Part shown: piece by piece, positions 6,096 through 42,500 of the stretch | Layout of the letters: the number at the start of each line of letters is the position of its first letter | Position numbering within the stretch: the stretch's first letter is position 1 | Origin: Odontesthes bonariensis | Taxonomy: Eukaryota > Chordata > Actinopteri > Atheriniformes > Atherinopsidae | Length of the DNA stretch: 64,000 bases | Assembly: GCF_027942865.1 (NCBI RefSeq) | Contig: NC_134510.1 | Coordinates: forward strand, 9,148,001 to 9,212,000 | Reading direction: 5' to 3' | Made by a program: the position numbers and the translations under genes | Notes under the pieces: generated by a model | The model's input: the letters and a program-made list of their open reading frames with translations, nothing else | What the model was told of the DNA's origin: nothing | The model's database searches: none

Positions 6096-6479
6096 AAGGA
6101 ATTTGAATCGTATAAGCAGACATGGTTCATGTTCTGGGACCAGCTCTCGCCCACGCTTGGTCAGGTTTCACATGTGTGGTCTCAGGATTGGCACATATTT
6201 GGACTCAATATTGGACCGTGTGAGCTGACCTGAATTTGGGCGATACACAAATCCAATTCAGATCTGGCACCTAGACTTGATCTACATCTTGTTGTACTTG
6301 TAATGAATATCAGCATTTACATGTCATCACTACTAAATGAATTAGTCCCAATATGGAGTGTGCCTCAGCACAGACAGAGGAATATGTAAATCATTCAAGG
6401 AGAAGGAGCATGTATGAGTGTGGGGGGAGGTAGATGGAGGGGTTATTTCACATGTCCACGATGTTGTGTACCATGCAGC

Positions 6480-6659: not shown

Positions 6660-9053
6660 ATGACCACTCGAAGACGAGAGGGTCCACTTAACAGTCAGTC
6701 TGGTTTCCCACAGGCTAACACAGCTGTAAGTAAATATTTGTTATTTTACCCGACGGCACACCTACTCTAAATTGAATGTATTTTCTTGTCTGGTAATGCT
6801 AAGTTGTGTGTGGACATGACGTTAAAATGTAATTATTTGATTTGATTTTCTTACGAATTATCAACGAATACCACTGGTGTTTGTTGGGTGGGGTGGGTGG
6901 TGGTTGGTGGTGTCTGCCTGCCCTGGTGGTCTGGTGTTGTGTGTCTCTTCTCGCGAGAAAGTAGGTGAAAGGGAAGCATGTTTAGAGCACCAGCTGATCA
7001 TGCACAGTTCACATGCTGGCTCCCATGTTCTGCACATGGTGATGGGTTGCAAAGTCAATAAAATTAAAAAAAACAAAACAAACAAACAAACATGGCGTGC
7101 CATGTATGGATGTTTATCAGTTCAGGACAAGAAGATGCTAATCATAAGGAAATTTTAAGAGGAATGTAATGGAACGTGGGAAAGCAAACAGAATGAAATA
7201 ATGCTCTTTATTGTCCTTACGCTTGTGTTTTTGCTCAATCAGAGCGGCAGTATGGAAGTTGAAGAGCACTGCACAAACATCCAGGTTGATTTCCAGCCAG
7301 GTTCTATCGGTGCAGGTGACTTGAGGGCTGTGGAGGCTCTGATGTCCATGACTAAGCATTGGAAGACAAGGAACTTAAGGCTAAGACCCCCAAGTCCCTC
7401 CTCAGACTGCTCAGAGGATGAATTTGTCCTCTCTGGTTCTGCAGTTCTTCAGGACTTTTCTCTTGTAAGCGAACCATTGTGCCAGCGTGGATGAATTTTT
7501 TACTGTAAATAAATCTTTTAGCTCTTGGCCAAAAATGTTTTCTTCCATAACCTGATTCATAGATTGTGTTGTGTATTATTTTCAGTTATCTATGCTCTTA
7601 TACTTGGATTTCAACTTTGGACTTGTATTGACACCATTGTTCAACACTTATATTAGATATGTTATTCAAACATATGCAGTAGGATTGAAAACTTCACCAC
7701 ATAAGTCGTTGATCATTTACCTACTTCTCCTTTCCCAGTGCCTGACACCACCATACAGTCCACCTCTCTTTGAGGCCACCCATCCAGCCCCAGTGCTCAA
7801 ACTACAACACCCCACAGAAGAGATTCCTCTGCACACTGTTTCTCCGAAGTTCCAGTGCACCAGTGTAATCCGCCACACTGCAGATGGCCTGCACAGTCCC
7901 TGTAAGGTTCAACAACTCTCACAGGAAGAAAGACTCAGTGGGGTTCATATGGAAGATTCTAAAATGCTTCTCAACTCTTACGATGGGCAGATTAGGAGAG
8001 ACTCTGGGGAGAGGATTGCAACACAAAAAGCTTTCACTGATATACCACCTGATTTACAAGCAGAAGCTAGTCAGACCCAGATGAGTCAGTTGAACCCGGA
8101 TGATAATTCAAACAAACCCCAGTCTGTTCCATCTGCTGTCTCTCCTGTTTCACACGCGCCTACCTGCAGCCGGATTGTTCCCATCTCTTCTCCGTCCCCC
8201 ACTGTTTGGAAGAACCCTGTCACGACTTCTGAGAGTCAGCAGCAACACCAACTGCCTGTCTCATTAGAGATCCCCACCATGCATGTGCCATTAAATAAGC
8301 AGGAAAACCAAGAATATAAATTATCACAACCACAACCATCTTCTCCTGCACAGGTCTTCCTTGTAGGGGGAGAGGTGGCTAAAGGTCCTGTAATGCTGCT
8401 TGTCCCTCAAGCATCTGTTCCTAATCTCTATGTTCAGCAAACGCTGGCGACCCCTGGTGGCACCAAGTTTGTGGCCATCGCACCCGCTCCTGCTCATGCC
8501 CTGTCAGAGCAAAGAAGCACCCCAATGCAAGCTGAGGTGTCACGTGTACGCAGCCATGTTTGTCCGCATGAGGACTGCAGCAAGACCTACTTCAAGAGCT
8601 CCCATCTCAAGGCGCACATTAGGACACATACAGGTAAGAGATGATGGATTTGATGCGTAATTTAACAAATCAATCAGTCAGCCTCGTATGCTCAGTCCCC
8701 TTGAGAGTTCTGAAACTAAATTAAGTCACTTTATCCACCCATTTTGAATTATATTTTAAACCTACAATACTATCTATGTTCAAACAGGTGAGAAACCCTT
8801 CAAATGCAAGTGGGAGGGCTGCGAGAGGCAGTTTGCTCGCTCCGATGAGCTCTCACGGCACCGTCGAACCCATACAGGAGAGAAAAGGTTTGCCTGCCCC
8901 ATGTGCCTCAGCCGCTTCATGCGCAGCGACCACTTGGCCAAACACGCCCGAAGACACCTTGCAGCAAGGAAGACACCCTACTGGGCGTTAGGGATCAGCC
9001 ACCCTGGAGCTGCTTCCACAACACTCGGACTGTGCTCCACAAACTGTCTGTGA
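6660..9053 (+). CDS. klf10: Krueppel-like factor 10 (TIEG1), complete, 4 exons
   Basis: Coding exons 6660-6725, 7243-7464, 7739-8633 and 8788-9053 join in phase to 482 codons. KLF10 is a nuclear, TGF-beta-induced repressor that binds GC/CACCC boxes. Residues 48-58 ([11 protein letters not shown]) match the Sin3-interaction helix of TIEG factors. CLTPPYSP (97-104) is the second repression motif, and a SVIRHTADG block also matches KLF10. A Ser/Pro-rich middle is followed by three C2H2 zinc fingers (first Cys at about 371, linkers HTGEKPF and HTGEKRF; DNA-contacting [29 protein letters not shown]). The intron between exons 3 and 4 splits the Gly of the first linker. KLF10 rather than KLF11 is chosen from these motifs and from synteny with UBR5 and AZIN1. 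The C-terminus after KTPYW diverges from mammalian KLF10. The first ATG has a poor context (T at -3); see the in-frame ATG at 7252. Confidence 0.92.
6867..6925 (+). other. G-rich tract in klf10 intron 1
   Basis: Runs of GG and GGG recur every few bases (GGGTGGGGTGGGTGG and following TGGTTGGTGG), enough to form a G-quadruplex in DNA or in the nascent transcript. Function is not known. Confidence 0.5.
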
Positions 9054-10743: not shown

Positions 10744-13700
10744 CTAAGCTGGGACAGACAGCGCAGCCTCTGTTTGGCAGGAATTGAGAAAATAAGGGAC
10801 CAGTGAGAAGCTCTTCAGCGTAGTCTCATGGGTGACACCAGTGTCCTGCATCTCAAACCTGAAGCAGGAACAAAACAGAGTCAAGCAAAAAAGATTTCTA
10901 TAATAAGAGATTTGTTCCAAATGATACACAACATACTGAGATACTTGCCAGTCTCTAGAGGAGAGGATGTAATAGACGTGGGGTGGCGGTGAGTCGGTGG
11001 AGGTGAACGGTGACTGACTCAGATTGTAGGCCCCGGCATGTTTGAACACAAGCCAGTCTCCTATATTGAGCTCAGATAACAGACAGTGCTCGACAACCTG
11101 GTCCAGGTCGTCCCCAGAGGGGCCCCACAGGCTGCTGCTAAACACCGGAGCCTCCGCGGACGTGTTCTGCTTATGGGGCATCGAAATGAGTGTTTAGTCA
11201 TTGCTAATTGGACTGTTTTGTCAGCATAAATTAGATCTGTTTCCAGATATTGAAAAGAAAGAAAAGCGTAGCTTTGGCCACCTCTTTGTGCCCAGAGAAC
11301 CTTTCAGACTCACCTTGTGAACAGAGGGAGCAGCAATCAGTGTTTCAGAGAGTTTGCTGGAAAACGATCCATACACTCCCTCATTCATGTAGTACTGGAA
11401 TTCTGGCTCCTCATTGGGAGACAGCTCATCTGTTCAGAAATGTGGCAGACAGAAATCAATTTTACAATGTAACATTTGCACATTTTTGTACTTGGAAAAA
11501 GCTGTTAGCCTCACATTACATCATCTATGTGTAATACACAGTTGCATTATAAATTCCTCTCTTTACATTTTTCCACATGGTCCTACAGTATGTTGTGTGA
11601 AACTGCTGATTGCTTCTAAATATGCAGTGTCAAGAAAGCTTTAGAGTTTTGCTACCTCTGGAATGTAAAAGTTTTACATCACATGGTAAATACATCTAAA
11701 CATCTTTATCAAAATATTCGCTAGGTATCATGCCACTGACCGTGTTCCTGGTCCTTGCGATCACGGGCCACCACCTCCTTAGAGATGATGTTGACAGCCA
11801 GGGTGAAAGCAGACGACACAAAGAAGCTGCCAGGCTCAGCAATGATGGAAACTCCGCACGAAGAAGGGAAGTACATGTCCACCACAGACATGACTGTATT
11901 ATTAATCTGAAAAACAGGTGACAAGGCTTTTTACAAGTTGCATCGAAATGTTGCTTAGTGTAAAACTGGACCCCTCCTTTGGAGGACTAATACTGATTAC
12001 AGTTTAAACATATATGACGAAGCATTCTTAATAATGGATCCTCAAAGACTGATACTGACCAGTTCCAGTTGGGTCTCAGAGCCACTGAATCCACCTCCAA
12101 TGTCCAAAATGTTCATGTTGAAGCCAATTTCCTCCTGCAGAAGACAAAGAAAAAAGTATAAGCTAGGTACTGCAGGTAGATGTATAGAAATATTGGTGAT
12201 TATGACAGAAATAAATCTAAATATTAGTTACAGAAGTGAGGTAATTACAGAAAAACAAAATACAACAGCATTACTTACTCCCATATCAAAGACACAACGG
12301 GCATCAGAAACGGCGTGAACATACACCTGGTCATCCTCGCAAGAGCTAGAAATGTGACACCTGTGGGGGAAAACAGTTACTGCTCACACTGATTGCCTCA
12401 TAATGAATCGGATTTAGATCTGTTACAGATGGGCAACAAAATGTGCTTGAGATCGATGTGCCGGTCTTGTAATGCACAACCAGCAGTTGCTGGTTTTTCT
12501 GCAGGCCTTACCTGACCCCAACAACCTGCACACCGAGCTCTTTTGCACTCTCTAGGAGATGCCTGCAGTCCTTGAGAGAGCAGCCAAATGTCATGCTCAT
12601 CTCTTCACCTGGGTTAGATGCCTCTGTTGACACCTGTAGCAGCAGCCTGAATTAACACACAAACAAAAGTAGCTGGTTATTGTTTGGTTAAGAAAAAAAA
12701 AATCCTAGTGTTAATGGATCAGGGTCGAGTCGTAAAGCTTGTTTCTTCTCCCCCGTTTCCTTCTGGGCCTGAATTGGGCCCTTTCAGGTAGTGACGCTCC
12801 GATCGATCGGCTGCCGATCATGATCGGCCGATCAAGCCTGATCGGCGATCGGAAAAATATGCCGATCAAAAAACCGATCACGTGACATAAATTACTAGCG
12901 ACCACTTTCTAATGTGGTACGTGACGTGTGTACAGAACCGAACAGGCAAAACCTCTACAGTGCATCTCGACAACATGACCTCTCCTGTCTGGAATTTCTT
13001 CAGTGTGTCAGAAAGATGTGAAACTTACTGCGGTCACGCTATCTGCGCTTCGGAGAGGCACGGTCGCGCTATCTACACTTGAAAATCGAGTGCCCGTTTA
13101 CATCGCGTCGTACGGTAAAGCGTGTGAGCGGATTTATGGTGCATTCAAGTGCACCCTGTAAACTCAGAAATCTATATCGAAGTTGATTTTTCATTTGTTG
13201 GAATACATACACCTGTCATTACTTGGTTGTTTTTTTTTACTACATTCTTTTTAATGATTAAAACAAAATGATAGAACAAAATTATTGAAGCATATTCAGC
13301 ATCAAAATCATTTCTACATAGTCAGATTTGAAAACTTCATTTAGAACCAAATCAAAATGTTCTCTGCCGACTCCACCAGATTCTTGTTCTACATGTCCCC
13401 AGCTACCTCTGTGGTGATTTTCAAGTCATTCCACTGCATCATTGTTTAATAATCTGATGTTGAAATCATACCCAATGGATGATGTACATGGGCAGATTAA
13501 AAAAAAAAATTGTTTTCTGCAAACTCCACCAGATTCTTGTTCTACATGTCCCCAGCTACCTCTGGCGGTTTAATTTCTATAAATGGTGCACTCTCTGCTA
13601 GATGAAAGGCATGGAAATGTCCGATTCCTTCCGTGATCGGCAGTGATCGGCAGTGATCGGCAATCGGGCAGATCATGTTTTTGGTGATCGGTCCAAAAAA

Positions 13701-16338: not shown

Positions 16339-16447
16339 CCTCTCAACCGTTTTCTTGAAATCCGACAGGCATAAAGAATGTGGCTAGTCCAAAGTTGTCT
16401 TGCTCGCTCCCCCTCGAGCCCCTGGGGTCCTAGATTTATGCAACAAA
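16339..16447 (-). other. azin1: azin1 5' UTR part of first coding exon
   Basis: On the gene strand a T-rich tract ending TTTGCAG at 16448 is a good 3' splice site, so the exon should start at 16447 and carry 109 nt of leader before the ATG at 16338. The intron upstream (16448 to about 17666) separates it from the uCC exon. Confidence 0.65.
16343..16372 (-). other. azin1: short AUG upstream ORF in azin1 leader
   Basis: In the leader part of the first coding exon, a 9-codon frame (MPVGFQENG, stop at 16345-16343) ends five bases before the main azin1 start codon at 16338. Its start context is weak (T at -3). It is distinct from the conserved non-AUG uCC further upstream and may be read only occasionally. 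Confidence 0.5.
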
Positions 16448-17702
16448 CTGCAAATAAAAAAAAAAGTTATCACAAATGGATAATGCACAATCCGTGGTCA
16501 TGTCAAGCTCCTTTTAGTTCAGTTTGCTGGAACTAAAACCTCTCGGAGATGCACAAAGTCATTTCCAGTCTGCATCCAATCAGGACAGGGAGTAGTTTCC
16601 ACATTACAGGGTGGGTTTGTAGAAGAGGCCTATTCTTCTAAAAAAAAAAAAAAAAACACTACAAAAACAGAGTCTGGGGCACAGGGTTCATTTACTTTAC
16701 CATCAATTACTCCCAACAATCACCATTAATTCCTGAGCTGGTGACCCGTAAATGTGCTTTTGAATGGCATTAACTAAGAAACAATACTGGTGGGGCCCGT
16801 GTCAAACATTTACCTTCTCTGATGTAACACAACATCAGAGAGTCCAGTCTGAACTGGACCAGATGTAAAATAACGGTGGTTTTGGAATGTGACACTGGGG
16901 AACAACTGATGTGCCTGAAATACCACAGTTTTTTTTTTTTTTTTTTTTTAAATAAAAGAGTGGCAAGGCTACAAGATACAAACAAATGAATCAACAGAAA
17001 GTGAAAGGCAAGTTTGCCATTTTTCATTTTGAAAGATACCAAATCACTGCAATCATGAAAACTCCACCACTGAAACACTGGTTAAATAAACACAGAAAGA
17101 TGACTGAGGACTTTAAAAATCAACCAAGACTTAGGTAACTAAGAAAATGCTTAACTGTGCCACCCGTACTGAAATAAGTGAGGATGTTTCTAGGGGGTAT
17201 TTGTAGGGTTAATGATCTGTATGTACTGCAGCAGTCAACTCACAGAAAATTAATATTATACATATTTGATGGGTTCATACCTACAACCAACTTATTTTCT
17301 CTTCTACTGCAGTTAAATCTAATCAGGAGAAAAACTACTGCAGATAAAAGCAGACCAGAATAGCATCCTGTTTTTTCAAAGTGCTGACAAAAGATCTGAA
17401 ACAATCAAAATTAAAAATAGACAGTTTATTATTCATCTGGGACATGCTGCTTGTTAATTCACTCCCTTTCCCTTCTGTCAAGAGCTTCCGTGGCGCAGTT
17501 TTTGTGGGAGTGACTTTAAAAGCAATGATATCATCCAATTTTAATACAAAGTGTACACTAATGTGAATACAAACATGTTTATATTTACCAATGTCTCTGC
17601 TATGAGAGTATGAGGGCTCTACTCACAAAGCAGATGCATAAATTCTGCAATTTACAGTTAATTCACCCACATGGATGAGTCCTGGGATGAACCAGTCCAC
17701 TA

Positions 17703-18395
17703 TCAGCTAGGGTCCCAAGGTGGCTCTGCGTTGAAGTCAAATGGCTCTCTGTAAAGAGCTGCCCCTAGATCCTCTGGGTAGTTGCTGTACACCTGCAAAA
17801 AGGCAGATGAGGACAGGACACAAATGAAAACCGTCCCTGACTGGAAAAAGAAGAACTGATTTCCCTTGCATGTGTTTCTGAGACGGAGGAAATTAGAGCT
17901 GCACACACGTAGAACAAGTGACATTTTATGTTGTTGCCTTTGAATAACATGATTTCTGTGTAAGCGGTTAATGTAAGTCAATCACGTATTGAATGCAATG
18001 TATTGTCTGCTACGAATTCAAAGCTTCATATAATATACAGCATCAATTCGTTTATAATTACGCTGTTACATAGTTTGTTATTCCAGTCTCTTCCATCGCT
18101 TCTATATCAGTCACGTTAGCGTAAAGCTAACTATGTAGAAGCGTACACTGTGACTACTGTCTCGCAAACACACCTTCTATTATCTTGAGTATCAATATCA
18201 CTGACAGTTACGTTAGGTTTGAGGTGTTTACATGACTAGCGTTAGTATCCTGTAAGCAATATCACGCCAGGTTACCCGTTAAGTTAGCTAAAAATGTGCT
18301 AAGGCTAACAGGGAGCTAACGTGTTAGCAAACGTTACTTACGTTGGCTGAAGACCCAAACGAGGGGACAGAACGCTTTTTCTTTTTAGGCGGAAT
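17703..18395 (-). CDS. azin1: azin1 upstream conserved coding region (uCC), non-AUG, two exons
   Basis: Minus-strand segments 18342-18395 and 17703-17792 join in phase 0 (donor AAC|GTAAGT at 18341; acceptor TTTTTGCAG before 17792) into 47 codons starting at ATT (18395-18393) and ending E-P-P-W-D-P-S-stop. The exon 1 part is IPPKKKKRSVPSFGSSAN; exon 2 begins VYSNYPEDLGAALYREPF. AZIN1 mRNAs are known to carry an inhibitory, AUU-initiated upstream ORF. High polyamines pause ribosomes at its Pro-Pro-Trp motif, with eIF5A involved; scanning ribosomes queue behind, initiation at the AUU rises and main-ORF translation falls. PPW is at 17723-17715, about 125 nt downstream of the ATT. The ATT has A at -3. 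There is no ATG in frame in this segment. This acts as a cis-regulatory peptide, not a stable protein. Confidence 0.85.
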
Positions 18396-18540
18396 TTTTA
18401 AAGAGTAGTGGGGTAACCAAGAGAGAAAAATACAACTGCCATAGACTATATTAAGTTATTGTCGTTTTGGGGTTGGGCACTGATTATTTGTTGCGACCGA
18501 GCAGAGGACGACGGCGGAAAAGCGGTGAAAGACTGACACA
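18396..18540 (-). promoter_or_regulatory. azin1: azin1 upstream leader / promoter region
   Basis: Sequence upstream of the uCC start. The reading frame of the uCC remains open for a short distance 5' of the ATT, but no in-frame ATG was seen. No TATA box or clear initiator stands out, so the transcription start is not placed. Confidence 0.3.
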
Positions 18541-23671: not shown

Positions 23672-23833
23672 AAACAAAGCCCTTCAACTGCATTGTCTCT
23701 ATGAGTAGCTCTTATTTGACATGAGAATTATTCTTGTTATGAAATGTTGAGCTTATTATTAAGGCACAATACATAGTGATATTAGTACAGCTTTCCTCTC
23801 AGTTGTTTTTCTAGCTTCACCAGTGCTGTAAAC

Positions 23834-26800
23834 ATGACGGAGTTTTGGTTGATTTCTGCTCCGGGAGAGAAGACCTGTCAGCAAACGTGGGATAAAATGA
23901 TGGCAGCCACAATGCACACCAACAACCTGTCCACCAACCACAAGTTCAGCATCCCAGACCTCAAGGTTTGTATGGATCCTGCTTGAGTTCATGCAATGTT
24001 TTTTTTTTTTTCTCCCACGCTCTAATGCAGAGCCAATAGATGAATCTACTAATAAATAATTATAGTGGTATGATTTTCTTTCATGCACACATCAGAATTA
24101 TTTTACCCTGTTTCAAGAGCAGCGTCATGTGCTGTATTAGGTCAATCTGAATCCACTCACCTTGTGTATCCACTGTCAAGAATAAGCTGGTTGTCTGGTT
24201 GGAAAGCAGACTTGACACAGATTGCTTGCCTGCATGTTGAAAGGATGTTTAGGTGAAGTTTTCATCCACAGTGCAGTTCAACTCGACTGGTTCGGTTCCT
24301 CTTTGTGCTGAAGGTGAAGTAACCCTGCTGACCTTGCTTCCGCATGAGGCCGTCATGTCCTCCCAAAACAGTTAGCGATGCATGAGCAGCTCTGGACAAA
24401 GAGGCGCCAAACTAAGCACATAGAGGCCCCTGGGTGTAACTTTAGGCTAGTTGAACCACAGATGACACTGTTCAAACAAAGTCCCGCTCAACCCACTTGA
24501 AAACGACCCAAATACCCAGGACTAAGCAGTCACACGTCTGATGTCTCTTTGTTTGTTTTTATGTCCAAAACAGGTTGGAACTCTTGATGTCTTGGTTGGA
24601 CTGTCTGATGAATTGGCCAAATTAGATTCCTTTGTGGAAAGGTATGCACCTTGCTGTACTCTTCCTTTATACACAGTATTCCATACAGCTGTTATTATTT
24701 ACATCTGAAAGATAAACTAGTAAACACTCCTGACCCTCTGATGTAGCCGGCTAGCCATTCTCTAATCCCCTCCCTGACCTTGTAACAGTGAGGAATTTCG
24801 CACGGACCTGAGGATAGCGAGCCTCGCAGTCTAAACTTGGCAATTTACAGTTGGGTGACACATCAGCAGCTCTTTCTGTAGTCATATTTATGCCATATGA
24901 CTTATGTGCCATCACCATAGTCCTTTGGAAAAATTGACATCCAAAACTCACACACAGCCATTACTGCCTGAGCTAAGCTTTGCTTCCTTTGTGGATGTTT
25001 CCAAGAAAGACCAACTTGGCAACATGGTTTTGCTTGTTTGACTACAGTCTGCCGTTAATCTAGTTCCCTTTTGAAGTTTCTATTCAACATATCTGAAAAG
25101 TGAAGAAGAAGAAGAAGAAGAAAAAAAAACAACTTCGAATCGGGAGTTATGGCAAACATTTACATGCGCATTCTTTTTTTAATTTAAGGATTAAAAGCAT
25201 TTGTGCTCTCTTATGAAGCTTTTAGCCTTTAAATGGGACTTGGCTCCAGTTTTCATGGCCACTTTGATCTTTTATTGCATAGTGTTGTTGAAAATCTTGA
25301 CCTCTGAAAGTTGGCCCTATTATGAATAAGCTTGTCAAGAGACGACCTTAACAGGAATATGTGAGACTTTTTGATGTGTCCGTCTGTTTGTGTTATATTT
25401 AGAGCGATGAGGCTGTAGTGGTCAAGTGTGCTGGCAGAAAGTGTGCTATACAGTGGCTTTGTGCTTGCAGTTTGTGTTTGCACGGCATGTTTTGATGTCT
25501 CCTGGGTGTTCACAGTGTGGTGAAGAAGGTGGCTCAGTACATGGCCGATGTGCTGGAGGACAGTCGAGATAAAGTGCAGGAGAACCTGCTGGCCAACGGA
25601 GGTACAATGATGTCTTTAATACTCAGTGGCCTCATTCTGTCAGTAAGGACGTAGCTGTGATAATTATTTCAAAGCTAAAGTAACATTTAATGGGTTTTTT
25701 TTATGCACATCTGAAATCACTGTGATAAAAGTGTAGCTTTTTCCCATTTTTTTGTCTCGCCCTTATCTGATCTTTTGATGTCTATTTTTCAGTTGATCTT
25801 GTCACCTACATCACAAGATTTCAGTGGGACATGGCAAAATATCCGATAAAACAGTCACTTAAAAACATCTCTGAAATCATCTCAAAGGTAGGTCTCTCAG
25901 TTTAATGAGAAAACAAACAATGATTTTAGGTTTGTCTGTGTTTGTGGATATTATTCTCAATGTGTTAATTGTTTCCACCCTGATCAGAGGTATTTGGAGT
26001 TGCCATTACTCTCGCGCGTATGCTTCACATCCATACAGTCACGTTACTCCTAATTGTTTTTATGTAATGTATCCTGTTTTCTTTCCCAGTTAAAAAAAGA
26101 ATTAAAAAATCAGTTTCGTTTTTATGTTTTTGCAGCAAGTAACTCAGATTGACAATGACTTGAAGGCAAGAGCATCAGCTTATAACAACCTGAAGGGAAA
26201 CCTGCAGAACTTGGAAAGGAAGAATGCGTAAGTCTAATACAACATTTCTGTACTGTGATAGAACCTTGGAGGATCACAGACTCTCTCTATGATTTCGTTA
26301 GCATAGCCTGAAGAGTCTATTCTTCAAACTCTGGGAAACTTCCTCTTTCTCCGGGTCTTTGTCATTGTAATGTTCTAATATGCCACCAGGGGGAGCCTGC
26401 TGACCAGGAGTCTGGCTGACATTGTCAAGAAGGAAGATTTTGTACTTGATTCAGAGTACCTCATCACTCTGCTCATAGTTGTACCAAAGTGAGTGTAAAT
26501 GATCCAATCAGTCCCAACAAGCATTTCTGCAGTGAATCAACGGGTTGACTTAGAAAATAAGATTTGGGTACCGTATGATGTACTATTATGCTCTTACAGG
26601 ACAGCATATACTGACTGGCAGAAAACATATGAAACACTTGCTGAGATGGTGGTGCCTCGATCGACAAAGTAAGTCATGTCTACATAACAGAAAAAAAAAA
26701 CATTATGAGTATTTATAACCCAACTATACCAAAAAGATCATTTAGAATTTGTCTTACTGATGTCATCACAACACTTAAACTTAGAAGTATCCAACTTTTC

Positions 26801-29800
26801 TCCCAGTCTGCTGTTTGAAGACCACGACAGTGGGCTGTTCAGTGCCACTCTGTTCAGGAAAGCCATTGACGACTTCAAACACAAAGCTAGAGAGAACAAG
26901 TAAGAGTTTTTATTCTGTGTCATGACTTTGTGTCGTCATTCAACACTGTGTGAGTCACACAAACTTTGAGAAGCACCTCCGTGAGAAAATCTCAGCAGCG
27001 AGTCTGTTGAATGAATATAAATAGCCTAGACAAGTAAGTATATATCACAAGTAAGTGCAACTGGCTGTCCAAAGCAATGCTGCATTCTCACATCTGACCA
27101 TCTGACATTTTCATGTGTAAATAATACGAAGATACAAAGAATATGTCATCAAATCAAGCTGTTTTTTGTTTTTATCGTTGTAGGTTCACAGTGAGAGACT
27201 TTCAGTACAATGAAGAGGAGATGAAGGCTGACAAGGAGGAGATGACGCGGCTCTCCACAGATAAGAAGAAGCAGTTTGTAAGTGAAGGAATGCTGTAGAA
27301 ATGGATCAAATAGATTCAGTCGGTCATAATTTAAACTCTACTCAGAAAGACTGAAAGCAGTAATCTTTGTTTTTTTTAAATGTCCATTGTTAGATTTTAG
27401 ATGATAAAGCACCCTTTAAACACTTCCATAATTAGGAGTTGCAAAACAGCATCTGACATTTCATGTCAACAAAAATATAGAATAATATTTAGTAAACTAC
27501 TGTTAAATGAATTCAGCACCTGTTCCCAGTGGGCAGCTTGATGAGAAATGATTTCCCCCAGAAAATAACGAGTTCCACCCTGAAGCTGTTTAAAAAGTAC
27601 GTGCTGGATGGCTAGCAGCGGTCAGAAAATGCTGACCTCACTAAAGTTTTTCCACTTATCAGTTGTGTTGCATAAAATGTAGTTGCTGAAAGAGCCTCAA
27701 ATGGATAGTTACTCTGCCTCCTGTCTGCAGGGTCCACTGGTCCGATGGCTGAAAGTGAACTTCAGTGAAGCCTTTATTGCATGGATTCACATTAAAGCAC
27801 TAAGGGTCTTTGTGGAATCTGTTCTGAGGTACTGATTACACAATGCGGTCCCGCCACCCATGCCTGTATATAACAATATATGAGATGAAGCATTACTATT
27901 TCACACTGCTTGTGTAATTTTCAGCGACAGTAGTTATGTAAGCAGCATTATGTAGTCTCAGCAGGGCAAACAATGTTGATGTCATGATGTGTTCTTACAG
28001 ATATGGGCTGCCGGTGAACTTTCAGGCGATGCTCCTGCAGCCAACCAAGAAGACCATGAAGAAGTTGAGAGAGGTTCTCAACGATCTGTACAAACATCTG
28101 GACAGCAGTGCAGCAGCTGTCATTGATGTGAGTGCTTTGATAACATGCTGTCTGCTAACTCCTCTTCTTCATGGTTATCCAGAAGACAGCACAATGCATG
28201 TCATTAAAAAGAGAATTATTAGTTAAATCAAGTTACAACACTTTTATTCCTTTTTTCTAAATATGTTATACGATACATTGTTAGCAGTTACTCAAGATTT
28301 AGATCATTTGAGGACCATCATAGAAGAAAGATGTTGACCGACTATTCTAAACTGTTCATCAGTGAGCCATAGATTCTGCTAAACTAATTATCTGTATAAA
28401 GGTACATTTTGGTATTAAGTGCTACAATATTTGCACCTTTTTTTTATTTTTTAAGTTTGCATTTAAAAACTACACATAATGCGGGTAAACCTGACATTTA
28501 AATGACGTTCCTGAGGTGCAAAAACATGACAACACCAAAAAACAAATAGATCATAAAATTGGAGAAAGCACAAGAATGAAACACAAAACAACATAAGAAC
28601 ATTTCCTTTCAGACAAAAAAAAAAAGAAACTGAACAACAGAAACTAGAAAAATGGAAAACAACACGACAAAGATGCTTTTTTTTTTTTAAATGTTGTGAA
28701 GTGTCCTGTTTTCTTGTCATGTTGCTTTTCTGTTTTGTTGCATTTTCAGAAAGGTTGCTGTGTTTCCTGCTTTGTGCTTGTGTTTTCTATTTTGTCAACT
28801 CGTTCTCATTCCAAAGTCATCACATGCGGACACTTGTTCCGAGGGGTGCACCATGAAGCAAGTTCTACACAGCCAGGCTTTCTTTGTCTTAACTGGCCTG
28901 ACAAAACCTTAACCTCTTCTAAGAGATAACAGTACTATGACGGTGATCATGATCATTCTTTGTTAAATCAGGCATTCCTCTACAGTTTCCGCCCCCACTC
29001 ATATAAAATTGGCATTTTACGCGTTATTTGATGCTTTTCCGGCGCAAAATCCACCTGACACTTCATTCATAAAGAGAACGAGTTGTTTGAATGGAGAAGT
29101 TTGAAAAATTTAAAGATCATTATGGAAAAAACACAGTTGCTGCGGTTGAGAAAAGATGAATACAGAAATTTGTGCAAATTAGAAAGTTACATGACAGCTG
29201 CACAGAAAGCTCTTCAACTTTTAACTTGTTCAGAAGGGCTTTTAGTTCAAGCCGTTGACCAAATCAAAGCAAATTTTTATTGATTGAGTACTTTCTGATA
29301 TTTAAGCCTAAAGTAATTCATTTTCCAATCGGTTTTAGATCCGATATCAGCATTATAGGTTGGACTTTTTCAGTTGTGAATCGGGGCCAGATAAAACTCA
29401 CTCTGCATCACCAATTGAATGCGTCGTTCCTACATGTTTTTCCGTAACTGTCAAACGCCTTTGGTGGCACCGGGTCAGGTTAAATAGGTTTGGATTCTTC
29501 AGATCAGAATCTACATCGTTATTTGTTCACTGGAAACTGAGCTCTGGTCACAGGGGCTGATTTTTGGTTGGGATTCAAATCCATTGTGGATCAAATATTT
29601 AATAGATCACATATGATTTTGGTCACATTTGGCGAATGAAATGCCAAGATTAGTTATTGATTTTCTGTCAGCTCTTTCAAAATCTGACATTTGTTGAACC
29701 TCGATTGATTTATATTTAGTTATGATGTCAGATGTTCACTTTCAGTACTTGTGCGTGATGAGATTTAAATGTTTGCTGTCTGGGAAATCATCAGGACAAG

Positions 29801-30822
29801 AATTAGTGAAAGAACATTTCTGAAAAAATTCTGAGCAGAAACTACTCCGGAACAGTCAAAAGTTTTGCCTTACCATGGTGATCTAGCCATCGTGACAATG
29901 AAAACTCTTTAAGGTCCACGCAGCTTGCTAGCCCACTAATCTCACTTCATAGTGAACCCCCGACCCCGCAGGATCCAGCTGCAACGGTTTTGGTCACAGC
30001 GAGTACCCCCAAAGTGTCACTTTTGTAAATGCAGGTTTTCCATAGGACATGTCGCCATGGGAACGTGGAAAATCTTGGCAAAGTTTTCCAGAATGAAATG
30101 CATTTTCATGTCATTTTTAATGCCTAACTTTGATGTTATCCAAACTTAAACCAAGTACTTTTTCTGCCTCAATATAACCGCGTACTCCTAATGTCTAAAC
30201 TTGTGACAATAAAGACAAGAGAAAAGATGGTGGAAAACAACACCCTAGATGTTGGACTTGAATGTGAATTCCATGTTTGAGAGTTGGGTGTCTTTTTTTC
30301 TAATCTGCAGATCTGTGTTACTTGTTGGCCAACACAGGTGACATCTTTCTGTCTGGGTTTCATTTTGGCACAGCCGGTGTTCCACAGAAGGACAACTGGC
30401 AACACGCATGTTGAAACTTGTACCACAAGCCTCTTGTGGCGATATTGGAATGAGAATGAGTGTTGGTTTTGTTGAGTTCTGAAGAAGCAACACATGATTT
30501 TCTGAAATGTCCCGCTTTCTAAGATTTTGGTGTGTTTTTGGGATTTTAGTGTTTTTAGAGTGTTTCGTTCCATCCAAACAAACCTCCATTGTAAACATTG
30601 ATTCATTAAAAGTCGACCGTGGCGCAATGCTTATTTGAAGTGATAGCAGGTGAGATATTACGCAGATGTTCAAACAGATGATACCTCACACTAACATTGT
30701 TTCAACTTGTTTGTCTTCTCCAGTCTGTGATGGACATCCCAGGCCTAAACCTGAGCCAGCAGGAGTATTATCCTTACGTCTACTACAAGATCGACTGCAA
30801 CCTGTTGGATTTCAAAGCTTAA
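23834..30822 (+). CDS. atp6v1c1: V-type proton ATPase subunit C 1, complete, 12 coding exons
   Basis: Exons 23834-23965, 24574-24641, 25516-25601, 25793-25887, 26136-26227, 26390-26488, 26600-26668, 26807-26899, 27184-27277, 27731-27828, 28001-28127 and 30724-30822 join in phase to 383 codons (human 382). Subunit C is a peripheral-stalk subunit of the cytosolic V1 sector. It links V1 to the membrane V0 sector and is released when the pump is disassembled. The protein starts [19 protein letters not shown] and nearly every exon matches human ATP6V1C1: [71 protein letters not shown] and [20 protein letters not shown]. It ends DFKA, one residue beyond human. The last intron (28128-30723) is the longest and holds no exon I could find. 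C1 rather than C2 is chosen by similarity and synteny. Confidence 0.96.
25104..25130. repeat. (GAA)n short repeat
   Basis: GAAGAA repeats followed by an A run inside atp6v1c1 intron 2. Confidence 0.85.
28128..30723 (+). other. atp6v1c1: atp6v1c1 intron 11
   Basis: The 2.6-kb last intron. It contains several ORFs up to 152 codons on the minus strand (30169-30627) with no recognisable domain. Blocks near 28840-28870 (GTGCACCATGAAGCAAGTTC) resemble dispersed fish repeats, but I could not find paired ends. Confidence 0.45.
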
Positions 30823-31115
30823 ACCTTTGCCCCGTTTTTGTCCTCATGCTGAGTGTTAAGTTATGTGTCCCTGGTTCAGGCTTCCCCTCCTCCCATGCTT
30901 TCCGCCTCCTCATTGTCTCCCCTCCCAGTCAGCTGCTTGAATGACAGTGCTGCATGTTCATTCCTTGTGGTGAAAACGCTCTTCAACAAGCTTCTACCAC
31001 CTTTTGCAACAAATGAACAACAAAAAAACACTTTTAAACATTGTTTTTGTTTTTGTTTACAGTTTATTTTTCTTCTTAAGCCTCACAGATGATTAGGTTT
31101 TTTTGATGTGAAATG

Positions 31116-31121
31116 AATAAA
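31116..31121 (+). terminator. atp6v1c1: atp6v1c1 poly(A) signal AATAAA
   Basis: AATAAA 294 bp after the stop codon in an AT-rich region; a second AATAAA lies at about 31380 and could give a longer 3' UTR. Confidence 0.55.
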
Positions 31122-32180
31122 GAAATAATAATGGAGAGTTCTATATTTACTGTGTCATTCCATGTGTGCTGTTGGGTATTATATTGATGTTCACAGATTT
31201 GTGTTTTATGTCAGAGCAGTTTCATGGCAACCACATCTGGAATGCATTTCTGAGACTATGTGATCACTGCAGATGTTGTGAAACAAAGATGTTATCTGAG
31301 TGTAAGTTGTTGTGTCATGTTGTGTATATTTGCTGTCAAAAAGAGATCTCTACCTGAGTATTGTGTAAACCAATGATTGAATAAATATGATTAAAAAAAA
31401 CTGTTGTGAACTGATCAAAGACAGAAAACTGCAACCTGTACACAGATTTATCTTTTTCTTCCTTTGATTCGATGGTTGATGCCAAACTTTGGCTGATTTT
31501 ATATTCGGGACTTGGTCTGTACGTTGGATGAGTATGTGCATGTGATTGAAATGAACATGAGCATAAGCACCGTTTGGGTAGATGATCAAAAAGAGAAGCC
31601 TTGTGAGCACTGATCATGTGCAGAGCCTTTGGCAGTTTCAATGAAACCTCTTCTTTGAGAAGAGCCCATTGAAAATGCTCCAATGAAATACTTCAGCTTC
31701 AATATCAAACCTGACTGAACACAACAGCAGAGGGCACCAAACAGACACCTCTCTGTATGTTAGGATGTTACAGGTGTAGTTTTTTTTTAGCCTGCTAAAT
31801 GTAAGTTGACAGATCCTATTGAAGCCAAGAAGTTAAAGATGACACATTACCTTAATATTTCAAGGAGTACTTTTTAGCAACTACTGTTGCTGATTTATTT
31901 TCATCTTTTATCGTGTCAGAATAACAAAAAGTGCTGTTTGGGTGCCGTGCATGGTCGGTATTGATTAACAACCCCTTGAGCAGGTATCAAGCTTTAATTT
32001 CTGGTTTCAGACAGTTCTGTCCAATCAACTAGCAGAACACTTCAAGATTCTTCAATCAGTTGACTGAAATCTCATCTGTGCTCTTGGGTGCATCAGAATC
32101 CTAAAGCATACCTCATCCAGCCCCGTGTAGCAGAGGAAGATGTGTTATCTTAGTAAAGTTCTCTTTTTTTTCTTTCAACC

Positions 32181-32344
32181 TACACCAGCAAGCCATTATG
32201 ACATTATGACCACTCGAGTAATATTGAGTAGGTCCTACTCATGTCGTTAAAAAAGCCCGACCAGATGATCTGAGGGTGTCAGGGCATATACTCTGACATC
32301 ACCACCAGATGTTTTAGGCCATAATGTTAGGACTGGTTGGTGTA
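32181..32344. mobile_element. short DNA transposon remnant with inverted ends
   Basis: The left end TACACCAGCAAGCCATTATG (32181) is the approximate complement of the right end at about 32319-32344 (ending GGACTGGTTGGTGTA). The internal ATTATGACCACTCGAGTAAT and GAGTAGGTCC match a fish repeat family whose ends read TACACCA..CAGCCATAACATTATG. It is an internally deleted copy. Target duplication not resolved. Confidence 0.55.
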
Positions 32345-32454
32345 TGCTGACTGTGGCAAAAAGTTGTATTCCATCAGTGCAAAGAACATGTTTGTCAAAT
32401 GCATCGGGCCCGTTTCGATGCTGAATTTAGAGGACATAGACATGCCTATCCCAG

Positions 32455-32600
32455 TTATCTTTGGGTGAGTTGAAGGGTATACCCTGAACAGGTCACCACT
32501 CCATCAAAGGGCCAACACAGAGTCAAACAAAATGACTCAAAATGAACAACCGTGCACTCAGACGAATCAATAATCAACCTAACATGCATGTTTTTTGGAC
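32455..32600 (+). repeat. dispersed teleost repeat remnant
   Basis: The order 'TACCCTGAACAGGTCACCA', 'CAAAGGGCCAACACAGAG', 'CAACCTAACATGCATGTTTT', 'TGGACTT' matches a repeat very common in fish genomes (consensus close to ACCCTGGACAGGTCGCCAG ... CAGGGCCAACACAGAGACA). A related fragment is at 37300-37372. Exact class not assigned. Confidence 0.5.
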
Positions 32601-33289
32601 TTTTTTGTGCTCATGGTAAAAAAAAGTGCTAGAGTCACAAGCAGAAATCAACATCCAAACCCCAAACCAGCGCAGAGAATGCTACAAAAATCTGTGTTTT
32701 CACAAACACACACAAAAAAAGCTTGGTAGAAAATGTCAAAAAGATTCAAAGAAACACACTGTATGTTCAGAGCTACTGCAGAAGGCTGAACATTCAAAAG
32801 ACAGTCCTGAAGACAACTGTATGCATAACAGAATAGATATGTTGAAACAGGTGAATATATGTTTAAATACCAAATTAAATGAAAGATGGTCAAAGAAACA
32901 AAAAGACAAAAAAATACTCATTTTCTGTGGGAATTACAAGGTAACAAAAGATAAATTTAAAAAAACCTGCAGATTATTGAAGCATTACATTATCCTGTAA
33001 CAGTCTCCCCCCATGTCTGATGGGGTTGAACTGCGTGTGCGTGTGTGTGTGCAGGCGTGTGTCTTCGTCTAGTGTTTTGTTAAGAGGACAGAAAAAAAAA
33101 AAGGTAAAAGCCGTTTTAAGGATATCTCGAGGTTGTGGTTAAGGTGCCAGACAAAGTCTCCAACAAATGAATGTAGACAGAGAAAGAGAGAGAAAGAGAG
33201 ATCATGTGATGGAGTGAGCCTGCTGGGCTGGGATGTGAGACACACATCCTCACCCTCTCCCTCACGCGCACATTCAACGTTCAGGCTCG

Positions 33290-33515
33290 AATCACAAAGG
33301 CTACAGAACGCACGCACGTCTTGTGACGTCTGGTACCCAAACCTGAGCGTCTGGCGGGCGGGCGGGCGGGGAAACAGCCACCGTTTACTGTTTCACTTGC
33401 CTGTGCTGCTGCGCGAAGGAACAAGAGCCAAGCATCAATGCCTCCAGATTTCTTCTTTCACATCGGCCTGGACTTATTCTCGTCATCGGGCCTCCTGCGC
33501 TGAGAGAATGAAAGG
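33290..33515 (+). promoter_or_regulatory. spire1: spire1 promoter / GC-rich 5' leader
   Basis: Upstream of the spire1 start the sequence turns GC-rich. It carries TGACGTC (33324-33330, a CRE-like core) and four GGCG repeats (about 33353-33371) able to form a G-quadruplex. An ATG at 33508 opens a 15-codon frame (stop 33553-33555) that overlaps the main start at 33516 in another frame. The transcription start is not defined. Confidence 0.45.
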
Positions 33516-36500
33516 ATGGCCGAGCAGCGATGCGGCGGGGACCACGGAGGGCTGACGGATGCTGCTGCAGCGGATCGCCGGGATGAGCAGCAGCATCAGA
33601 ACGCGATGAATTCATCGGAGGAAGCTGGAGCGGAGGGCCTGTCTCTGGAGCAGATTCTGAAGCTTTATAGTCAGCCCATCAACGAGGAACAGGCATGGGC
33701 GGTTTGTTACCAGTGCTGCAGGACGTTGGCGAAGGCACACCGGGCCAGGAGGAGCCCCACCGCCGCCGCCGCCACCGGAGCTTTATCAGCAGCTGCTCCG
33801 CGGAGGATATCGGGACCGGGGGATGTTAGGATGCAGAGAGATGGGTCTGTGAGGGTGGACCACCAGGGCTGTGAAGGTAAGATATTACATAAGACTGCTC
33901 ATATCTTTCACAGGCCACTTGAATTCCGCACAAGCCTCAGATAATTTTCCAGATTTAAAAAAAATATAAATAAATCTCAGAAAGGCAAGAGAACCGGATA
34001 TAATCGTGGTGTAAAGTGCGTAAATGGCGCAGGTTGAATAATATAATAGTTCCACTGCTATCTATGTTGATATGGAATAGCTTAAATTAGGCTCACGCAA
34101 AGCCTTCAGCTCATAAAAGGGATTTTTCATGTTCTTGTCTTATTCAGGTATTTAATCTATTCTTTCGGATTCTTCTGCCGTGGGATAACAACAGCCAGCA
34201 GTTAGGGTCCCATCACACATCACCTGACCACTGATACACAAAGGAATGCCATTTCAAGACCCCTGCTGCTCTCACCCTTGCGTTTGATTTCCACTAGCCT
34301 GTTTCCTCACCACGTGTGCGTGCACATCATGTGATTTTATCTTTTATTAAGAGCGTCTCAGTGTGTTTTGCCACCTCATATCAGATCAGAGTGTTCGTTC
34401 GGCTTCATCTGATGAAAGCATGTGATTACACGCTGAAATGTGGGCACTGATTGGATCGAGGAGGACTGACACGAAGCGATTCCTCCCCCAAAGCACATTC
34501 TTGCAGCTTATCTCGTGGGCCTTATGTGCAACTGCTGCTGGTCGACATGGAATTGGTTGGTCATAATTAAAGTGCTCCTATGAAATATATAACAGAAAGA
34601 GTGTGTTTAAGATATTAAATGACTGTAATATTCTCTGAACGTCCCTTTAGACATGTCCAGAATGTATGGGGCCATGTGGGGCTGCATACTGACATAAATG
34701 ATCTCTATTAAGTTGCAGTGTTTTCAGAATAATCTTGTAGAGCTGATCTGTCTAATAAGGGATAAACCAGGATTCACATCAAAACAAAGCAGATGGCATA
34801 GCAGGATGTGTGATGGCGTGGCCTCTTCTGATGGGTGTGTCTAATATTCAACCACACAAACACTTCACTTTATCTTGCTCATGTTCATCGTCTCATATTA
34901 TCAAATTTTCTCACAGAGTGAAGAGCAGACTGAGTAAAAGCCTATCTGTCAATCTCAGTAATGGTCTACCTGATGACCTGAGGGCCTTAGGGATGTGCTC
35001 TCAACCCATCAGCGCAGACACGCACTACACAACCCACTGCTGAGTCAATGTGCTGGCCTTTGATTTGATAGACGCACCACATGCTTTGTGTAATCAACTT
35101 GTAAGAGCAAATCTGAAAGGCACATCTGTGATGATGATGTTGTGATCCGATCAGAGTCTATATGGTTTGAATGAATGGGTTATTTTTAGAAGCATGGAAG
35201 CAACCATTCGAGGGGGGGGGGGCAATCATTCATTTCTCTGTGTTACGGGTAATGTCACATCATGCGAAAATTGTCATTGAACAACTATCATTCAGATATT
35301 TTATTATGATAATCATTTCTATTCATTTTTGATTTATTTATTAGGTATTTGTTTTCATAAGATGCCATGTCCCGTTTTTGTTTGTCTTGTGCTACTTCAC
35401 AGATAAAAATGCTGTCAGCCTCTTATCGTTTCCTTTGATTAAGATCAGATTTATTTGTCATGCACACAAAAGTTGTCCTCTGCTTTTAACCCATCCAGGT
35501 TGGCATCTGTTGACACACACACGGTCACACACTCATAGAGACAGATGCCAACCTGGAGCAGTGGGCAGCCATTGGCAGCACCCAGGGAGCATGGTGCCTT
35601 GCTCAAGGGCACCTCAGTCATGACAAGAAGGTGGACTGACACCCCTCCAGCAGTCAGTTCCACCAATGTTTATGTGTGGCGATAGTGGGTATTGAATCTG
35701 CCAACCTTCTGGTTATTGGATGACCGACTCTAACCACTGAGCCACGGCCACCTTTGGTGATAGTCAGTCATGTGAAAAAGAAAATACACCATTTTTCACG
35801 TCTAAGGTTTTACATATCAGGAGATAATGAATCATCTAGTCCTCACCAGCCCCTAAAATTAGGTAAATTAGGTAAAGATGAAGATTTACACATGGCATGT
35901 CACCCCATGTCACTAAACAAAGACTGAAAGAAGTGTGTGAAAAACTAAGTTTGAGAAATATGATTCCGCAGCTTGCAGGGCCACTTTTAGCAGCAATCAT
36001 TTGAAGTAACTGATTTCCGTATGATGTTATCAGTCTCTCTCGTTGTTGTAAAGAAATGAGGACAAACTGTGCTTTATAATGTTGATTCATTGAATTGAGG
36101 TTTGTAGGTGTTCTTCTATTCACAGCTCTCTTAAGGTCCCATCACAGTATTTTAACTTATTACAAACTTTTGAATCTGAACATTTTCAGCTATTCTGTTT
36201 CAGATTAGCTGCTGTGCTTGAGATCATTGTTCCGTTATTACCCAATTTCAACCAAGCTTTAGCTTTCACAGAGATTACCTTACGTTTGGCTCCAGAATAC
36301 TGGAGAATAATGGTGTACAGAGGAATTTAAGGTCAACTCAATGACTGCCAGGCGTCTAAGTCCTATAGTTGCAAAACAAGCCCAAATCCTCACCCTTCTA
36401 CCACTGTGCTGACAGTTGGTAGCCTGAGTGTTTGTGATGATATGCACTTTTTAATTCTCACCAGATACACCAGAATACACTCACTGTTATACGCTGTGTA

Positions 36501-39500: not shown

Positions 39501-42500
39501 TAGTGTGCCATACAATCCAAAATGGGGGCAATCCAAAACCACAGTTTTGTTAAACCTTTGTTACCTTGTACATACCAAAAATGTCTAATCCTCAAATTTG
39601 TTTATTCATTGTTATAAATCTGTTAACCGAAAGCCCAAGCTGATCGAGGTCATTTTCTCACGACTTAGAACTCTTTCTGAGCCACAGGACGTATACACAG
39701 GATGAATAGGATTCATACAGAGAAATGCAGCCTTTTATTGTAAAATTGACTCACTGCCCTTCTAGCATATGATGCATTTATAAGTAACAGATATTAGGGC
39801 TGCTTATTTGACCTGGTCATTTCCTCATTCAGAGCCAGAGCTCCCAGCTGGCTGCACTGATTGACTGGTTTGAAATGTCCCCCAGCAAGTCCTCCTGTTT
39901 GATGAGAGCTCCGGGAGAAATTTCAGACATAATTAAAGGGCTTCGTAAAATTATCCTTCCTCCACAGCATGCATTCTCTGTTACTATAATCAGCTGCTCT
40001 AATGAATATAATAAAAGCTTCAGAAAAGACTCTTCGGTGTGTAGGGGTAAGGGTGTCTGCTTTTTCTTTTTAGCAATATCTAAGGAATGTAGAATCAAGA
40101 TGAGTTCCCAGAGGTTTATAACACATATTCAAGACGTAGTCTTGTCTATGCTGCTCACAAAAACATGGAATGATTTTACTCCGGTAGTGATCTCTTTCAT
40201 CTCACCTCAGTTAGCAGGAACTGTCAGTATTTTTTGATGGATCTGGTTGTGCATTGCTGTGTAATAGAGCTGTGATAACAGATGGAAAGTCAGTGAATGA
40301 CTTGAGCGCATACAGTTCACTGGAGAAGCAGTGAATGTGTAACTGTATAGACAAATCCCCACTAAGCAGCTTTGCACCTAGATCAGTTTTCACAATACAG
40401 ATTGTGGCAGAATGGATGACAAAACTACTGGCAAGTTTGCAGAGCTGCTTGATGCTTGACAGCATTAAAGGCATTTGGCTGGCATATAGTATGGAATTAA
40501 CCCAAAGCTCGATGAACAGGAACACATGTGTAGTCATAGCTGACATTATCTGCGCATGGCTTATAGGAGCATGAACTCTTCCAAATGATGCAGCTGTATA
40601 TGTCAGATGATGCTGTTTTTCATTGCCAATGAGCTGGGTTCAGCAGGCTGTGACATAAGGCTATTTGTGCTTTATGTGAAAAATGATTTTAAATCTGTTT
40701 TTAGTTTCGTCACATTTGTCACATTTGAACGACTACATGTCGTTCAAATGTGACAATTCTGGTTGCTGGATTTAGCCTCGAATTTGTTGATGACTTTGTA
40801 GACCAACCTACTTCCTTGATGTAGCGTAACCTCAGACATTAGGCTTTATCACTTTCCCCTCAGATTTTAACTATGTATGCCCCTTGCTCTCTTAATGCCT
40901 AAGCTTTAAAGTCTATAAAGGTATTAGAATTTAATGTAAACAGAAAATTCAGTCAGTTTTGAGCCTTTTCTTAACTTTTATAATCTTTTTATGTAATAAC
41001 TGATGTCCCCTACAGGCTGTGCATGATGGTTTACATGAAAAAAGAGACAAAGCGGTAAAAGGCAAACTGAGAACGCAGATATGTTCTTTAGTTCAGAAAA
41101 ACAAAAGCAACTGTGACCAGTCATATGACAGTGGGCTGTGGCAGCAAAGTCAGGCGGTGGAATCTCAGAGAGCAATAACTTAGACTTGTGTATAGCATAT
41201 CATCATGTAGTTGTTAGATGAAGGATTGCTTCTGTTTCATTAGGAGGTTTAAAATCCCAATTCCAAACACAGAAAGCACATTGAGCCACATTCAAGAACA
41301 TTTTCGCATTCTTATTCTAAATTTCTCTTACTTTTTTCGTATGAAGGTCTCTTACGAACACGCCACGTCAGATTCAACAAACGCTCTTAACTTCGGAAAA
41401 AGTGTGTAAACGACCTGCGTAATGAATGCCACCCGTGCGTATTTAAGTGCATGTGCATGAGGATAGTAAAGTTGCATAATCCACGCCCAAAATAATACCA
41501 TATAAGGCTACGCTTCGTCTCTCCTGTGCCAGAAAGTGTTGAGTCATGAGAATGGGCCATCAAAGGGGCAAAAAGAACAACTTTAAGGGCTCTGAGATTG
41601 AAGTTCTGCTTTCAGAGATCCAAAAAGGGAAGATTTGTCATTTTTAGCAGTGTCAGCAGTGGAATTACGGGACCTGCTAAAGCGAAGAAATGGGAAGCAA
41701 TTACGAGTGCTGTTAATACCGTGTCACTTGTAGTTCGTAATGTCTCCGAAATAAAGAAGAAATGGTTTGATATGGAAATGGCCTAAAAATGCGCTCGATG
41801 ACTGCAACTAAAGCCGTGCAATCAGTGGTTGCCTCATCATGATGGCACTTTGATGGGGCGGTCCATGAGGGGGGTCTTCTGGCACCACACCTTCTGGTCT
41901 GCCTGGGCTGGTTCAGGGAGTGGGAGACCCTCGTTCATGGCAAAATTGTGCAAAACGCAGCATGCAGCTGTATCGAGACACACCCACCTGGCCTTCAGTT
42001 CACCAATAGCGCGCTCCACAACAGCACGGGTGCTTTGATGCGTATATGTGTGTAGTCTATGGCTGGGTGGAATTGGTTTTGATCGGCGTGTTTCTCTCTG
42101 GAGTTGTGGCTCTAGCAAGCTGCATATTTGCAGCAGCACAGTCCTTGGCAATCTAAATTGCGATGTCAGCCATTCGTCTGTCTCCGCAAGGATATCTACA
42201 CGGTCTCTTCCAAAAGCCTGACGCACTAAGGCATCCAAAAGTAACAAGTCAGCCGCTGGTTACGCTTCCCATTGACCTTGTTATATACAGAGTCAAATTA
42301 ACCTTCAATTAGTGCATCATTTAAGTCAAACAGATAATGTCAGCATCATTATGGTGTATAATGTATATATTTATTTATGTTTGCTTCAAAGTAATTAAAT
42401 ATACAATCCATTAGTCAAGCAAACTTGATTTGAATAACAGCGGACTATTTTACGAAAACGTAAAATAAGAAAAAATTTGTGAATGTGCAAAATCTCTTAA

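Follow-up and report, generated by a model that had tools for sequence, protein, structure and literature searches.

A probable AUU-started, polyamine-related upstream frame in the azin1 leader of Odontesthes bonariensis and in its azin1 duplicate

An upstream frame in the leader of azin1

We analysed a stretch of 64,000 nucleotides from the fish Odontesthes bonariensis (contig NC_134510.1, positions 9,148,001 to 9,212,000; hereafter the window), whose minus strand carries azin1, the gene for antizyme inhibitor 1, with a leader, predicted to be spliced, 5' of its main AUG. In this leader, window positions 18395-18342 and 17792-17703 join into a frame of 47 codons that runs from ATT to PPWDPS-stop. 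A direct check found its coordinates, frame and stop as given in an initial annotation that had been made from the letters alone. As argued below, this frame is very probably the azin1 upstream conserved coding region, or uCC, a weakly initiated, AUU-started inhibitory upstream frame.

The host gene is complete from its ATG at 16338, so that the frame lies in an AZIN1 gene leader. Among solved structures, the azin1 protein matches antizyme inhibitor 1 best, at 586.9 bits (E 2e-175), ahead of 427.8 bits for the highest-scoring ornithine decarboxylase (ODC). In the window protein, the lysine of the ODC motif FYAVKCN is replaced by arginine and the cysteine of GPTCDGLD by glycine; we take both residues to have catalytic roles in ODC. 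Since the AZIN1 chains 4zgz and 3btn retain lysine and cysteine alike, membership of the AZIN1 family cannot be read from these positions, and the two replacements appear to be a trait of the fish protein and no proof of family. The last intron of the gene (window 10859-10948, minus strand) has a GC donor (GACTG/GCAAGT, the slash marking the exon boundary), where the duplicate gene described below has GT.

The full product of the upstream frame is IPPKKKKRSVPSFGSSANVYSNYPEDLGAALYREPFDFNAEPPWDPS, of which the first leader exon provides 18 codons (IPPKKKKRSVPSFGSSAN, to 18342) and the second 29 codons plus TGA (VYSNYPEDLGAALYREPFDFNAEPPWDPS, to 17703). It thus has roughly 50 codons, an AUU near the 5' end and no in-frame AUG. 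Upstream of the ATT, 20 more codons are open until a TAA, also without an in-frame ATG, in agreement with the earlier statement that the frame lacks one. Its C terminus carries both PPW and Pro-Ser-stop; a PPW with a stop no more than eight codons after it is present twice in the six frames of the whole window, this being one of the two. The peptide has no match in Pfam.

The intron inside the frame (18341-17793) is bounded by AAC/GTAAGT and TTTTTGCAG/GTG, and the frame stays open in phase 0 through the predicted junction, which bears out the proposal that codon phase is kept exactly. An approximate score matrix applied to the AGs from 18341 to 17701 gives its top value (9.33) to the acceptor whose exon would start at 17792, followed by 7.55 and 7.12. 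The last of these (exon start 17840) lies 48 nt upstream and keeps the frame, adding 16 residues to give a 63-codon form, which aligns to the human peptide described below with a score of 147, as against 152 for the 47-codon form. Given this second in-frame acceptor, the 47-codon form is our best prediction.

Table 1. Features of the azin1 locus and related places, by window position unless a contig is named
Feature	Position	Strand	Evidence or remark
uCC part 1: ATT start codon (18395-18393) + 17 codons, IPPKKKKRSVPSFGSSAN; end of leader exon 1	18342..18395	-	human and duplicate peptides begin IPPKKRRR
uCC part 2: VYSNYPEDLGAALYREPFDFNAEPPWDPS-stop	17703..17792	-	25/29 residues identical in duplicate
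Pro-Pro-Trp codons (CCA CCT TGG), expected eIF5A-dependent pause	17715..17723	-	frame; mammalian pause from papers
Asp-Pro-Ser-stop ending (PS-stop motif)	17703..17714	-	same residues in duplicate
25-nt block CCCACTACTCTTTAAAAATTCCGCC around ATT, identical in both azin1 copies	18388..18412	-	TTTAAAAATTCCGCC part also in published human AZIN1 primer
Leader intron 1, GTAAGT...GCAG, phase 0 in uCC	17793..18341	-	duplicate intron after same codon, same phase
Leader exon 2, donor TCCAT/GTGGGT	17671..17792	-	comparison with duplicate
Non-coding start of exon 3, up to main ATG at 16338	16339..16447	-	acceptor and TTTGTTGCAT conserved in duplicate
Candidate AUG upstream open reading frame (uORF) MAVVFFSLGYPTTL-stop, TAA 2 nt before ATT; duplicate counterpart MAKTVLFLSFIIVPTTL-stop	18398..18442	-	matters only if transcription starts upstream
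AUG uORF of 9 codons, MPVGFQENG-stop; duplicate counterpart MIVGFVKYC-stop	16343..16372	-	M.VGF common to both
azin1 main coding sequence, 10 coding exons, 451 aa	10744..16338	-	antizyme inhibitor 1 match; PF02784, PF00278
azin1 coding exons	16338-16237, 16023-15850, 15607-15435, 12646-12512, 12360-12279, 12134-12060, 11906-11741, 11429-11314, 11166-10949, 10858-10744	-	
V-ATPase C-subunit gene and KIND-domain gene	23786-33941	+	collinear with C23 segment, inverted orientation
odc1 leader PPW frame	C22:8899011-8898863, locus L016 (reverse-complement index 6989-7137)	-	

Counterparts in human AZIN1 and in a second azin1 copy

The uCC is already known, and what we describe is another species' copy of it: according to PMC4458265, every vertebrate antizyme-inhibitor mRNA available to Ivanov et al. 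2008 had a uCC, about 50 codons long and with the AUU conserved. The initial annotation had drawn attention to the AUU and the PPW in a fish; both are present, but given that report their occurrence in a fish is no surprise. Conservation of the AZIN1 leader has also been plotted from 46-vertebrate alignments (PMC4383229).

A human AZIN1 uORF peptide is printed in a supporting-figure legend of PMC9648851, and it allowed the joined frame to be aligned with another vertebrate AZIN1 leader frame, a check suggested at the outset. Aligned end to end with gaps, the window frame agrees with it in 32/46 columns, the score of 152 comparing with at most 30 in 2000 shuffles, while the 54-codon form of the duplicate agrees in 40/52 columns. 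The human frame has 52 codons, compared with 47 in the window copy, and is alike in its IPPKK... start, its YPE.LG..LYRE.FDFNAEPPW.PS-stop ending and its AUU within the same AAAAATTCCGCC context. The lysine-rich start that had been singled out is therefore present but not peculiar to this copy, IPPKK[KR][KR]R being common to the human peptide and the duplicate.

Two human AZIN1 primers in PMC11831846 contain TTTAAAAATTCCGCC and the reverse complement of GGGCCGTTATCTCACGTGA, from which it follows that the human AUU context is the same as here, with A at -3 and C at +4. Non-AUG starts need G at +4, and a C there is poor (PMC9082881). Primer and peptide together imply a human exon-1 end of CCGTTATCTCAC/GTGA. 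Since GTG cannot encode glycine after PLSH, human exon 1 is deduced to end CAC/GTGA, so that in human, as predicted for both fish copies, an intron would interrupt the frame at the same place, after codon 18.

A genome search with the uCC peptide revealed a second copy of the exon-2 half on another contig (C23:12741830-12742858, loci L004/L005), with the exon-1 half and another azin1 gene around it. This duplicate shares the frame, the ATT block, the 18-codon exon-1 part, the phase-0 intron and PPWDPS-stop; its differences are a length of 54 codons, given an acceptor consistent with the human residues, and one more ATG in exon 2, which is out of frame. An acceptor that would give the duplicate 47 codons (5.48) was set aside in favour of the 54-codon one (6.63), which scores slightly better. 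The 25-nt block CCCACTACTCTTTAAAAATTCCGCC is reported at only two places in 945 Mb with up to 3 mismatches, namely the two azin1 copies, in a search that skips simple repeats and very common words; its reversed control gave 0. When searched against viral contigs, the duplicate's uCC peptide had no relative there.

To compare the copies, residues and substitutions were counted in both from the shared 17792-type position, with the duplicate's seven extra codons left out. Common to both are 33/47 residues of the uCC (8/18 in exon 1 and 25/29 in exon 2) and 256/431 aligned positions of the main protein. With 34 uniformly random changes placed in the 141 nt, retention of this many residues was reached in a fraction of 0.00015 of 20000 simulations. 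The proportions of amino-acid-changing and silent changes per site (pN/pS) are 0.107/0.41 in uCC exon 2 and 0.043/0.40 in the last 25 codons, compared with 0.26/0.71 in the main frame. Both azin1 copies thus keep the uCC with fewer amino-acid than silent changes. Residue changes are fewer in exon 2 than in the main frame (4/29 vs 175/431, p 0.005), such that the uCC ending is better conserved than the protein under its expected control. Third positions are also more constrained in the uCC (15/47 changed vs 241/431, p 0.002), which meets the expectation of synonymous-site constraint as far as two copies can speak to it. A chance open frame is ruled out by the frame kept in the duplicate, the 25-nt block and the human alignment. 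Together with the antizyme inhibitor 1 match of the host gene, the human homology and the duplicate copy sustain the identification as azin1 uCC, and a putative non-AUG regulatory frame that an ATG-based gene finder would miss has been retained in both azin1 duplicates.

Proposed regulation and alternative explanations

Pausing at PPW, the role of eIF5A and ribosome queuing have been described in mammals (PMC9082881, PMC11058473, PMC11550727, PMC8705083), and PS-stop is a polyamine- and eIF5A-sensitive termination motif (PMC10855120, PMC11550727). A reporter loses its polyamine repression when the AUU or the last ten codons are mutated (PMC4458265, on Ivanov et al. 2008). From this mammalian work, we infer translation, pausing and polyamine response in the present species. 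Most scanning ribosomes would bypass the poor AUU, leaving few to translate the uCC, and these would form the Pro-Pro-Trp bonds with the help of eIF5A. High polyamine would interfere with eIF5A and cause a pause at PPW, perhaps again at Pro-Ser-stop, behind which scanning ribosomes would queue and initiate more often at the AUU. Ribosomes that read the uCC would not reach the azin1 AUG; the resulting fall in antizyme inhibitor would leave more antizyme free, and less ornithine decarboxylase and less polyamine would follow.

The ending is given as PPWxxPS-stop in PMC10855120, which names the related HOL1 PS-stop, whereas the printed human peptide has a single residue between W and PS, as does the window copy. 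The yeast HOL1 uORF (MLLLPS-stop) likewise ends in Pro-Ser-stop and is acted on by polyamine and eIF5A (PMC10855120, PMC11550727), but it is AUG-started and very short, has no PPW and belongs to an unrelated gene. The exact letters PPWDPS were not found in the literature searched, a scope outside which the two original uCC papers fall.

As predicted from sequence, the distance from AUU to the paused P site (the second proline codon) is 126 nt in the window, 141 nt in human and 147 nt in the 54-codon form of the duplicate. The initial annotation had measured about 125 nt from ATT to PPW and seen in it close to four ribosome footprints, as would suit queuing. Because the spacing varies in this way among homologues, the near-fit is not a conserved feature, and the predicted spacings speak against a need for a whole number of footprints.

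Several observations weigh against the frame being a functional uCC in the predicted form. The start codon, the splice acceptor and the polyamine response in this species are inferred. A further in-frame ATT stands 12 codons 5' of the first (18431-18429), such that the start codon is not pinned by sequence alone, and an acceptor at 17836 would put the exon out of frame, since the added 44 nt are not divisible by three. The window copy is without six to seven residues that both human and duplicate have after the junction: human GELSDQ has its counterpart in GSPVSAQ of the duplicate and none in the predicted window form, whose acceptor sits where the human glutamine codon would be. The exon-1 half is the weak part, with its 8/18 residues kept between copies, and over the whole uCC the residue changes (14/47) show no significant deficit relative to the main frame (175/431, p 0.16). 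The peptide comparisons comprise one human peptide and one duplicate. Finally, PMC9082881 places the AUU about 30 codons before PPW in mammals, whereas the printed human peptide has 46 codons to the first proline.

Of the alternatives, the one that fares best, though we consider it unlikely, is reinitiation at the ATT, to which post-termination subunits would be delivered from an AUG uORF (18442-18398) that ends 2 nt upstream. Such an AUG frame, with an MA start and a PTTL end, is present in both copies at lengths 9 nt apart, and the letters TAA at this place also occur in the published human primer sequence; against this, the pyrimidine-rich stretch between ATG and ATT could itself be the transcription start. 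Moreover, when each copy was shuffled 5000 times, such an ATG appeared in a fraction of 0.155 for the window and 0.152 for the duplicate, which makes the uORF suggestive at most. Another AUG uORF, of 9 codons, lies just 5' of the main ATG, its end separated from it by 4 nt in the window and 1 nt in the duplicate; its own ATG has a weak context in both copies, with T at -3.

Somewhat less probable still is that the window copy is decaying while the duplicate on C23 regulates, the window residues at the junction having been lost through a shifted acceptor. The duplicate is indeed nearer to human (40/52 columns vs 32/46) and keeps the residues after the junction, but in the window copy the frame is still open, the ATT block and PPWDPS-stop are present, and the main frame of 451 codons is intact. 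We regard it as highly improbable that what is conserved here is an element of the DNA or RNA, such as a core promoter, a transcription start or a structured leader, with the open frame as by-product: although the identical 25-nt block extends 17 nt 5' of the ATT, the third-position constraint implies some constraint on nucleotides and the human AZIN1 leader has a long-looped quadruplex as a further polyamine-responsive element (PMC6067879), exon-2 changes avoid residues, the 18-codon length and phase of exon 1 are kept, the peptide aligns with human, and no Rfam family reaches its gathering score anywhere in the window.

A possible relative in the odc1 leader, and the surroundings of azin1

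Apart from azin1, the PF02784 matches listed for the genome include a single gene, on contig C22 (locus L016), which is assigned to odc1 because it keeps the lysine and cysteine motifs. The odc1 leader encodes GLESYLKGFNFTGEPPWLLCT-stop, seemingly a diverged homologue of the azin1 uCC ending, one leader exon reading NPHSRKSHSGCSTGPGLESYLKGFNFTGEPPWLLCT-stop. In a test made after the match had been seen, none of the dinucleotide-shuffled sequences, 3000 from the exon and 1000 from the 1278-nt upstream region, came as close to the three azin1 uCC endings as this frame does, and tblastn gave E of 0.006 and 0.010 in 10 kb. Evidence against homology comes from the 25-residue azin1 ending, which, when searched at protein level through the whole genome at E up to 10, matched only the two azin1 places and not odc1.

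At the predicted odc1 junction, an AUG opens a 40-codon frame, MLFKNPHSRKSHSGCSTGPGLESYLKGFNFTGEPPWLLCT-stop. Two points count against it: the acceptor there is weak (2.77), and with splicing at a stronger upstream site (8.43) the PPW frame would be closed and have no AUG. Like the azin1 uCC, the odc1 frame contains GLESYLKGFNFTGEPPW, lies in a leader exon and would be in phase 0 if joined as predicted; unlike it, it has neither Pro-Ser-stop nor an IPPKK start, and would be AUG-started if spliced as predicted. A second odc1 AUG frame, MGKLFVNAF-stop in exon 1 (L016, reverse-complement index 6166-6195), overlaps, in another phase, the beginning of the PPW frame. Among papers on uORFs of odc1 or antizyme inhibitor, or matching this peptide, none was recognised from titles and abstract openings as describing the odc1 PPW frame, the two original uCC papers lying outside this scope.

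We offer only tentatively, and as doubtful, the idea that the odc1 leader exon carries a diverged, possibly AUG-started paralogue of the uCC, in which case one polyamine/eIF5A pause would throttle both enzyme and inhibitor, though from start codons and at spacings that differ. If true, odc1 would join azin1, with its spacings of 126 and 147 nt in the two copies, in a natural series on whether queuing needs a set spacing, and, were the odc1 frame functional, a single mechanism would provide polyamine feedback on both the enzyme and the antizyme decoy.

Both azin1 copies are flanked, in the same order, by a V-ATPase C-subunit gene and a KIND-domain gene, which we take to be atp6v1c1 and a spire gene. 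Because these neighbours are collinear beside both, the two azin1 copies lie in a duplicated segment, probably a product of the teleost whole-genome duplication. To the left of the window azin1 is a zinc-finger gene, presumably klf-like; among its 3 places at E 1e-8 or better, none is near the C23 copy. In addition, window 41390-42571 resembles C23:12761236-12762632 in many frames and contains an open frame that looks to us transposase-like; the likeness is perhaps that of a shared mobile element.
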